From Candidatus Mediterraneibacter guildfordensis (GTDB taxonomy: Bacteria > Bacillota > Clostridia > Lachnospirales > Lachnospiraceae), in the NCBI GenBank assembly GCA_019112735.1, contig DXIS01000030.1, forward strand, positions 35,597-99,596: a stretch of 64,000 nt of DNA. Direction: 5' to 3'. Below the pieces are notes generated by a model, which was given only the letters and a program-made list of their open reading frames with translations, had not been told where the DNA came from and made no database searches. Each line of letters starts with the position of its first letter. Positions within the stretch are counted from its first letter, which is position 1. This document shows positions 3,003-26,050 of the stretch, one piece after another. The position numbers and the translations under genes were made by a program.

Positions 3003-3031
3003 TTGAAAATAATAATATTGTAAGGTATAAT
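3003..3031 (+). promoter_or_regulatory. Promoter for the hairpin leader and ATPase gene
   Basis: TTGAAA at 3003-3008 and TATAAT at 3026-3031 are spaced by exactly 17 bases. A transcript starting near 3038 would begin inside the first hairpin of the array and carry it as a leader of about 150 bases in front of the ATPase gene. Confidence 0.6.
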
Positions 3032-3174
3032 GATTGCGCAGAGCGCAATCCAGCCCGGAATCCGGGCTGCTCCGCTGTGCGGAGATTATACCGGCAAGCC
3101 ACGGCTTGAGAAGTAAATGCTGCTTCGCAGCGCTTCCTTCTCTACGCACGTGGTATAATAAAGACAATATTATT
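3011..3174 (+). repeat. Array of compact hairpins forming the leader of the ATPase gene
   Basis: Consecutive short inverted repeats fill this segment: ATTGCGCagaGCGCAAT, AGCCCGGaatCCGGGCT, CTCCGCtgtGCGGAG, CAAGCCacGGCTTG and GCTGCttcGCAGC, the last inside a GAGAAG/CTTCTC pair. The array is bracketed by AATAATATTGT (3011) and ACAATATTATT (3164), a perfect 11-base inverted repeat, and GGTATAAT occurs directly at both ends (about 3024 and 3152). It ends immediately before the ribosome binding site of the ATPase gene. It could be a structured leader, a REP/MITE-like repeat or both; copies elsewhere in the genome would decide. Confidence 0.7.
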
Positions 3175-3190
3175 AGAGGATGTGAAATGT

Positions 3191-4405
3191 ATGGAGATGA
3201 TAAAACGAAATCGCTATCTGGATCAGATAAGTCCGTTTATTGATAAAGATCTGATCAAGGTACTGATCGGACTCAGAAGAAGCGGGAAGACTATTTTGCT
3301 TTCACAGATCCGCGACATTCTTCTGGATCAGGGAGTGCCGGAAAAAAATATTATAGAGATCAATTTTGAGTCACGGCGTTTTAAAAAACTTGAAGATGCG
3401 GATGCCTTTTATCAATATGTTATGGAGCGTGCAGAACAGGCAGGAGGAAGGGTTTATCTCTTCTTTGATGAGATCCAGCATGTGAAAGAATGGCACTCAG
3501 TCATCCCTTCGTTCAGGATCGATCTGGATTGTGATATCTACGTTACAGGATCGAACAGTAAACTGCTGTCGGGCGAACTGGCAACAAATATGGCGGGAAG
3601 ATATGTTTCTTTTCATGTGTATCCTTTTGTTCTGTCGGAGATACAGGAGTTTTACGAAAAAAACAGTATTCCGTACAGAAGAGAGCAGCTTTTTGCAGAT
3701 TATCTGAAATACGGCGGCCTGCCAATGCGCCTGTTGCTGCCGGATGAACATTCGGTGCGCACATATCTTGAAGATGTATATGATTCGGTTGTAATGAAAG
3801 ATATTCTTTCCAGATATGCGATCAAAAATGAAAATTTACTGAGAAAACTTCTGGAATTTCTTCTGGACAATATCGGGAATCCATTTTCTGCACGCTCTAT
3901 CAGCCGTACGCTGAAGGCGGCAGGATTCTCTACTACAGTGGAAACATTATTGAATTATATTGATAAGCTTCAGGAAGGAATGATCCTGTCAAAAGTTGAG
4001 AGATATGATATTAAAGGGAAAAGCATTCTGGCTTCAACAGAGAAATATTATGCCGGCGATATCGGACTCCGCAATATAAATAAGGCAAGTGAGCAGACGG
4101 ATTCCAGCAAGCTGTTTGAAAATGTAGTGTATCTGGAGATGCTGAGCCGGGGATATGACGTGAAAGTGGGAAAGCTGGATTCACAGGAAATTGACTTTGT
4201 ATGTTACAAAGGACAGAAGAAACTGTATATCCAGGTCGCATATGTCCTGACAGAAGACTGTATCGTCAGAGAATTCGGAAATCTGGAGAATATTGACGAT
4301 AATTATCCTAAATATGTAATCAGCAGTGACATTGTAGATATGAGCAGAAACGGCATCATTCATTATAATATTATTGATTTCCTGCTGGATAAACACGAAA
4401 TATAA
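3191..4405 (+). CDS. AAA-family ATPase with DUF4143 domain
   Basis: About 404 residues. The N-terminal ATPase half shows Walker A (GLRRSGKT, about residue 30), Walker B (VYLFFDEIQ, about 90) and a sensor-like VTGSNSKLL. The C-terminal DUF4143 half ends in a restriction-endonuclease-like segment, EIDFVCYKG...YIQVAY. This is the 'ATP-binding protein' family common in gut anaerobes; its function is unknown, with toxin-antitoxin or defence roles often suggested. I use the ATG at 3191 because AGAGGA at 3175-3180 is correctly spaced for it but abuts the track's GTG at 3182. AT-richer than its neighbours, which suggests acquisition. A terminator follows. Confidence 0.85.
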   Translation: MEMIKRNRYLDQISPFIDKDLIKVLIGLRRSGKTILLSQIRDILLDQGVPEKNIIEINFESRRFKKLEDADAFYQYVMERAEQAGGRVYLFFDEIQHVKEWHSVIPSFRIDLDCDIYVTGSNSKLLSGELATNMAGRYVSFHVYPFVLSEIQEFYEKNSIPYRREQLFADYLKYGGLPMRLLLPDEHSVRTYLEDVYDSVVMKDILSRYAIKNENLLRKLLEFLLDNIGNPFSARSISRTLKAAGFSTTVETLLNYIDKLQEGMILSKVERYDIKGKSILASTEKYYAGDIGLRNINKASEQTDSSKLFENVVYLEMLSRGYDVKVGKLDSQEIDFVCYKGQKKLYIQVAYVLTEDCIVREFGNLENIDDNYPKYVISSDIVDMSRNGIIHYNIIDFLLDKHEI

Positions 4406-25780: not shown

Positions 25781-26044
25781 ATGAGTGATCTTAGTAATAC
25801 ACAGTTCTTCCAGGTTGAGCCGGGGCCGCAGATCTCCGCAAAAGACATCTTAGAGATCGTGTTCAAGGCTCTCAAGGAGAAAGGATACAATCCGGTCAAT
25901 CAGATCGTCGGATACATCATGTCAGGCGATCCGACCTATATTACCAGCTATAACGGGGCGAGGAGCCTGGTTATGAAAGTGGAGCGGGACGAGCTCGTGG
26001 AAGAACTGTTAAAAGCGTATATCGAACATAATTCATGGGTATAA
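25781..26044 (+). CDS. ireB: IreB-family regulatory phosphoprotein
   Basis: 87 residues, the full family length (formerly DUF965/YrzL). The sequence [21 protein letters not shown]...[21 protein letters not shown] is characteristic. In Enterococcus, IreB is a substrate of the Ser/Thr kinase IreK and affects cephalosporin resistance. Its position directly upstream of ruvX is conserved in Firmicutes. AAAGGAGGAC precedes the ATG. Confidence 0.93.
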
Positions 26045-26050
26045 TCTGTC

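Follow-up and report, generated by a model that had tools for sequence, protein, structure and literature searches.

The hairpin-rich segment ahead of an ATPase gene in the window (the whole 64,000-nucleotide stretch of DNA that was analysed) is probably a copy of a non-autonomous mobile hairpin element of about 128 bp, of the MITE/REPIN kind, whose insertion target in Lachnospiraceae is the -10 hexamer of housekeeping promoters of the extended -10 type (TRTGGTATAAT). Copies of the unit are dispersed, its sites are found both empty and filled, the -10 box is duplicated where a site is filled, and the orientation towards the downstream gene is fixed. Native promoter signatures lie on its left, its DNA hairpins covary, and it expands locally into head-to-tail arrays. 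Most small bacterial repeats are intergenic and have loosely defined sites, whereas this unit enters the -10 box of housekeeping promoters and leaves one such box on each side. If confirmed, it would be a natural promoter-targeting and promoter-preserving mobile element of abundant gut bacteria, it would explain the recurrent hairpin leaders in Lachnospiraceae 5' regions and warn against reading them as riboswitches, and it would direct attention to an enzyme able to recognise or recombine -10 boxes.

The unit at the ATPase promoter and its empty site

The AAA_14/DUF4143 ATPase gene (3191..4405, on the plus strand like all features described here) is a host gene outside the element, with a likely start at ATG 3191, GTG 3182 being also possible. 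Its promoter, TTGAAA-17-TATAAT at 3003-3031, agrees with the consensus at 11 of 12 positions and ends in the first of two copies of GGTATAAT. The -35 box TTGAAA (3003..3008), 17 nt ahead of TATAAT, is native, and TTGAAA or TTGATT is found in the empty sites of genomes G034, G053 and G056. The left GGTATAAT (3024..3031) occupies the native -10 position, and the right GGTATAAT (3152..3159), preceded by the T of an extended -10, forms a second -10 box 31 nt ahead of ATG 3191. Between them the inserted 128-bp unit extends from about 3030 to 3157, as shown by comparison of the window with the G034 empty site and by the junctions at other loci. With the exchange placed right after TATA, the insert reads ATGATTGC...CACGTGGTATA; the repeated 8 bp allow other registers as well.

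Fold and covariation together define hairpin 1 (GATTGCGC-AGA-GCGCAATC, 3032..3050), hairpin 2 (CAGCCCGG-AAT-CCGGGCTG, 3051..3069) and hairpin 3 (CTCCGC-TGT-GCGGAG, 3070..3084). They are followed by ATTATACC (3085..3092), which is the complement of both flanking GGTATAAT boxes and nearly invariant across the repeat family, and by hairpin P4 (3099..3153), with the base CCACG/CGTGG, the stem AGAAG/CTTCT and the near-invariant mismatched tip AAATG...CGCTT. In this architecture, three tight hairpins with 3-nt loops are closed by GGTATAAT:ATTATACC, and the long interrupted P4 comes after them. The RNA fold of the 196-nt stretch was -80.2 kcal/mol, while shuffled sequences gave -50.7 +/- 4.5 (z -6.5), and the DNA fold of 3024-3160 was -43.5 (z -7.3).

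The first-pass annotation of this DNA had described a good promoter and a sequence present at both ends, and both descriptions were correct. Its five tight hairpins were real as folding, but their number is three plus the long interrupted P4. The hairpins precede the gene, as its term leader implied, but they are enclosed by two -10 boxes. The inverted repeat that brackets them is indeed perfect over 12 nt (left arm 3010..3021, right arm 3164..3175), but both arms are native DNA flanking the element, since they are present in the G034 empty site, and we therefore rejected them as the terminal repeats of the element. This native repeat straddles the -10 box of the ATPase gene in the window, G006 and G034 and, in nearly the same form, in G021, and is absent from G053 and G056; it may be an operator. 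The sole other GGTATAAT in the window (26038-26045) stands as CATGGGTATAAT just ahead of a gene start (ATGAGGATCATGGGGCTTGATTACGGGACC) and has no hairpin unit.

The orthologue of the ATPase in the close relative G034 (99% protein identity) has the promoter AATAATATTGTGA-GGTATAAT-AAAGACAATATTATT, with the bracket and one -10 box, from which exactly 128 bp are missing. At the -10 position of the more distant G053 and G056 promoters, GGTATAAT likewise occurs only once, so that three ATPase orthologues lack the unit. In G006 the insertion is identical to that of the window, which argues against an assembly artefact, and in G021 the same promoter holds two units, the first with an internal deletion and the second of another subtype. 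Filled and empty pairs were found at four further genes. GGTATAAT is single in empty sites and double in filled sites, as in the target duplication of MITEs. Some apparent empty sites may be deletions, as direct repeats of 8-16 bp permit precise loss.

Distribution, target and exchange point

The genome of the window has a second copy of the core 3024-3160 (at C26; 91% identical, without the bracket), and decayed pieces elsewhere. Within the genus, 39 of the 58 genomes carry the unit (1-14 matches per genome). When each species was represented by one genome, at least 118 genome stretches had the unit, and every displayed title was that of a Lachnospiraceae genome (Mediterraneibacter, Dorea, Blautia, Eisenbergiella, Mordavella, Merdimonas, Claveliimonas and others). 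Cultured carriers include Mediterraneibacter glycyrrhizinilyticus, Mordavella massiliensis and Claveliimonas bilis. These dispersed copies, together with the precise empty sites, support the suggestion of the first-pass annotation that a mobile hairpin repeat had landed ahead of the ATPase gene. The other outcome it had proposed to look for, presence only upstream of ATPase homologues, did not occur: 83 protein clusters lie downstream of 141 copies or arrays. Searches of plasmids, phages and IMG/VR gave no match for the unit, and a literature search for this -10-box hairpin repeat returned nothing specific.

In some genomes the units form head-to-tail arrays, in which adjoining units share the 8-bp GGTATAAT. 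The sequence GTGGTATAATGATTGC, which would be the joint of an excised unit circle, also occurs in arrays. Copies at unrelated loci were 88% identical on average within one genome and 79% between genomes, and array units were 86-99% identical, neighbours mostly 95-99%. The unit therefore spreads by dispersal within genomes plus local array expansion. Many copies are 3'-truncated; others are recent and near-identical, such as the strain-level pair L072/L130 (99%). In Dorea sp. D27, two arrays at a uracil-permease-like promoter are separated by a stretch of N (L118:4069-4211), which is probably an array collapsed during assembly.

Nearly all complete copies or arrays (76/77) immediately precede a gene of the same orientation, and the median distance between the last GGTATAAT and the start codon is 39 nt. 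Across 88 independent left flanks, GGTATAAT is preceded by Y-R-T (89/93/91%), the signature of an extended -10. In the same flanks, TTGACA-like hexamers are enriched at spacers of 16-18 with a peak at 17; at least four matches were seen in 34 flanks, against 11.5 expected and a maximum of 19 in 200 shuffles. The promoter activity of the -10 boxes around the unit is a prediction from their sequence. Among 30 orthologous promoters of a DUF5685 gene, a unit or remnant was present in 7 of the 9 with GGTATAAT or AGTATAAT and in 0 of the 21 others; this comparison is partly circular because the unit brings its own GGTATAAT, and its independent part consists of two empty GGTATAAT promoters together with the ATPase empty sites. 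The genome of the window has only 77 GGTATAAT sites. The downstream genes are varied housekeeping genes, including what we take, from reading their sequences, to be addB, mutS2, murA, pyrF, nrdR and mnmE, so there is no regulon and no partnership with the ATPase.

Pairs of filled and empty sites at several genes locate the exchange inside the -10 box. Its position can be read where the two -10 copies differ. At an S1-domain gene, empty promoters have TGGTATACT or TGATATACT, and the filled ones of G033 and G029 read TGGTATAAT-unit-TGGTATACT. At a second, unrelated gene (L080 compared with L247/L248), the right copy likewise keeps the native TATACT and the left copy is TATAAT. Because at both genes the left tail appears to come from the unit and the right tail to be native, the exchange would lie within GGTATA. 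Right copies are far more variable than left ones (TATAAT in 62/78 and 101/102, respectively), which is supportive only, as most left copies were picked with a pattern containing GGTATAAT and their invariance is partly built in. The exception is G049, whose left copy TATACT does not fit an exchange inside TATA unless it changed later. Unequal copies at two genes disfavour simple duplication of an 8-bp target; the exchange may instead be a site-specific crossover, a cut immediately behind TATA or a duplication of TA or TATA (2-4 bp).

Nature of the unit and its mobilisation

A strong fold at the 5' end of a gene, with covarying stems, is what a structured regulatory RNA would show, and the first-pass annotation had considered an RNA acting as regulator or partner of the ATPase. 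Across 22 diverse units, pairing was seen in 95.9% of cells, compared with 87.3% in shuffles, and 1055 cells held 104 compensatory cells and 1 one-sided change. This covariation is almost only from Watson-Crick to Watson-Crick pairs. Sense RNA tolerates G-U pairs, but in 81 units G-U was rarer than A-C (29 vs 51, p 0.018), which suggests, rather than proves, that the stems are constrained, or corrected, as DNA hairpins and not as sense RNA. Furthermore, the same type of unit precedes dozens of unrelated genes and shows no link to any single gene family or pathway, the hairpins are followed by a second -10 box, and Rfam gave no convincing match. We consider a riboswitch- or attenuator-like leader, or an RNA partner of the ATPase, extremely improbable, and an RNA specific to the ATPase was rejected because three orthologues lack the unit and unrelated genes carry it.

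The position and orientation at promoters, the conserved -10 boxes and the variation of copy number in arrays would also suit a dispersed promoter module kept by selection, with units that modulate transcription through tandem -10 boxes and 5' hairpins and are no longer actively mobile. However, the downstream genes have no common function, the filled or empty state of orthologous promoters differs between species, and the many 3'-truncated copies also speak against it; we regard such a module as very unlikely.

For the mobile element that we favour, we infer that the form acted on is the folded single strand, with hairpins 1-3 closed by GGTATAAT:ATTATACC and then P4, and that a recombinase or transposase supplied in trans would act on it. 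Strands would be exchanged in or near TATA, the partners being the -10 box of the target and the -10-like junction of the element itself. On the left, the product would retain the native -35 along with a -10 box; on the right, an extended -10 would stay at its native distance to the start codon. Because these promoter parts are kept, the gene would be almost unaffected by the insertion.

No autonomous longer version between the same ends was found among the fetched loci, and no transposase or recurrent mobility gene stood out beside the copies. Genes for Y1 transposases are widespread in the genus and belong to two types, both long and single-copy. A RAYT or an IS200/IS605-type HUH (Y1) transposase that moves the unit as a REPIN, cutting at TATA with ATTATACC as guide, would fit the folded clover of imperfect hairpins, the near-invariant mismatches of P4, the placement of ATTATACC ahead of P4 and GGTATAAT behind it, and the many genomes with single-copy Y1 proteins. 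However, the fetched Y1 loci have palindromes of another kind, and the unit directly adjoins none of them (at two R1 loci it lies only about 2 kb away), and G029, a 98% complete genome, has the unit and no Y1_Tnp match. The Y1/RAYT genes examined were rejected as mobiliser on account of their flanks, and this route in general seems doubtful to us. The single-copy RAYT-like Y1 proteins of many Mediterraneibacter-group genomes (L238-L257), with their own palindromes GGGGACGTAGTAAAATCGAATTTTACTACGTCCCC and GGGGTCTGACCCCTTTT, are apparently Firmicutes RAYT/REP pairs.

Spread might also need no dedicated enzyme, if excised unit circles or single strands recombined with -10 boxes over the 8-16 bp that both have in common (GGTATAATGATTGC). 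Such a crossover leaves the element's tail on the left product and the native tail on the right one, as seen at two genes; the exchange point seems variable (G049), and no transposase was found nearby. We nevertheless think this unlikely, as 8 bp is very short for homologous recombination, and as the perfection of the stems and the P4 tip motif shared with other repeat families suggest recognition by a protein. The mismatched tip AAATG...CGCTT is common to other Lachnospiraceae repeats and is a lead for a recognition hairpin. In another genus of the family (G169; L293, L299, L303, L307, L313), a different hairpin repeat of about 115 nt, CGCAAAC...GTTTGCTCGTT...GAAAAACAAATGTCGC...GCGCCGCTTGTTTTTC, shares the tip motif, and on its other strand it adjoins TATAAT-like boxes in some copies. 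We tentatively raise the possibility of a class of mobile hairpin DNA, including the repeats with this P4 tip, that targets the -10 box itself, its single strand being acted on by an undescribed enzyme that perhaps uses the strand melted by RNA polymerase; the -10 box would be rebuilt on both sides and housekeeping promoters colonised unharmed.

Comparison with known repeat families

REPINs are REP doublets that form hairpins and are moved by RAYTs (PMC3116915). Like REPINs, the unit is a short, non-coding, dispersed extragenic palindrome with compensatory changes and a predicted single-stranded hairpin or clover, and it forms clusters and has no transposase of its own (PMC3116915). A cognate RAYT gene flanked by the same palindrome, a further feature of that system (PMC3116915), was absent from the Y1 loci examined, where the RAYT-like genes carry other palindromes. 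Unlike REPINs, the unit sits in -10 boxes in one orientation, is about 128 bp long and has four hairpins.

BOX elements have a modular build. Like them, the unit consists of modular hairpins in variable number upstream of genes, but BOX elements are not defined by insertion in a -10 box and their sequences are unrelated to the unit. BOX elements of Streptococcus pneumoniae are mentioned in PMC10969869. Correia elements, or NEMIS, the MITEs of Neisseria, resemble the unit in being small, MITE-like, located upstream of genes and carriers of promoter sequence (PMC10969869, PMC2229807). Correia elements have long terminal inverted repeats and a TA motif, whereas the unit has no terminal inverted repeats and its target is the -10 box itself (PMC10969869, PMC2229807). 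ERIC, or RU-1, the 127-bp enterobacterial repeat, shares with the unit a similar length, an imperfect palindrome, an intergenic location and TA at the ends, but ERIC is not reported as confined to -10 boxes or bounded by GGTATAAT (PMC2229807). YPAL, or RU-2, is like the unit in not being AT-rich, in its internal inverted repeats and in its known filled and empty sites; unlike the unit, it has 3-26 bp duplications near dyads and is not at promoters (PMC2229807).

Measured against MITEs in general, the unit is short (128 bp, below 500 bp), non-coding and dispersed, and terminal inverted repeats are absent or negligible (PMC10969869, PMC2229807). Near both ends there is only the short similarity TGCGCARA, which is lost when hairpin 1 becomes GATTGCAC. 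The unit thus shares some defining features of these families and lacks others, and it is probably a new variety of MITE/REPIN-like mobile hairpin element, targeted to promoter -10 boxes.
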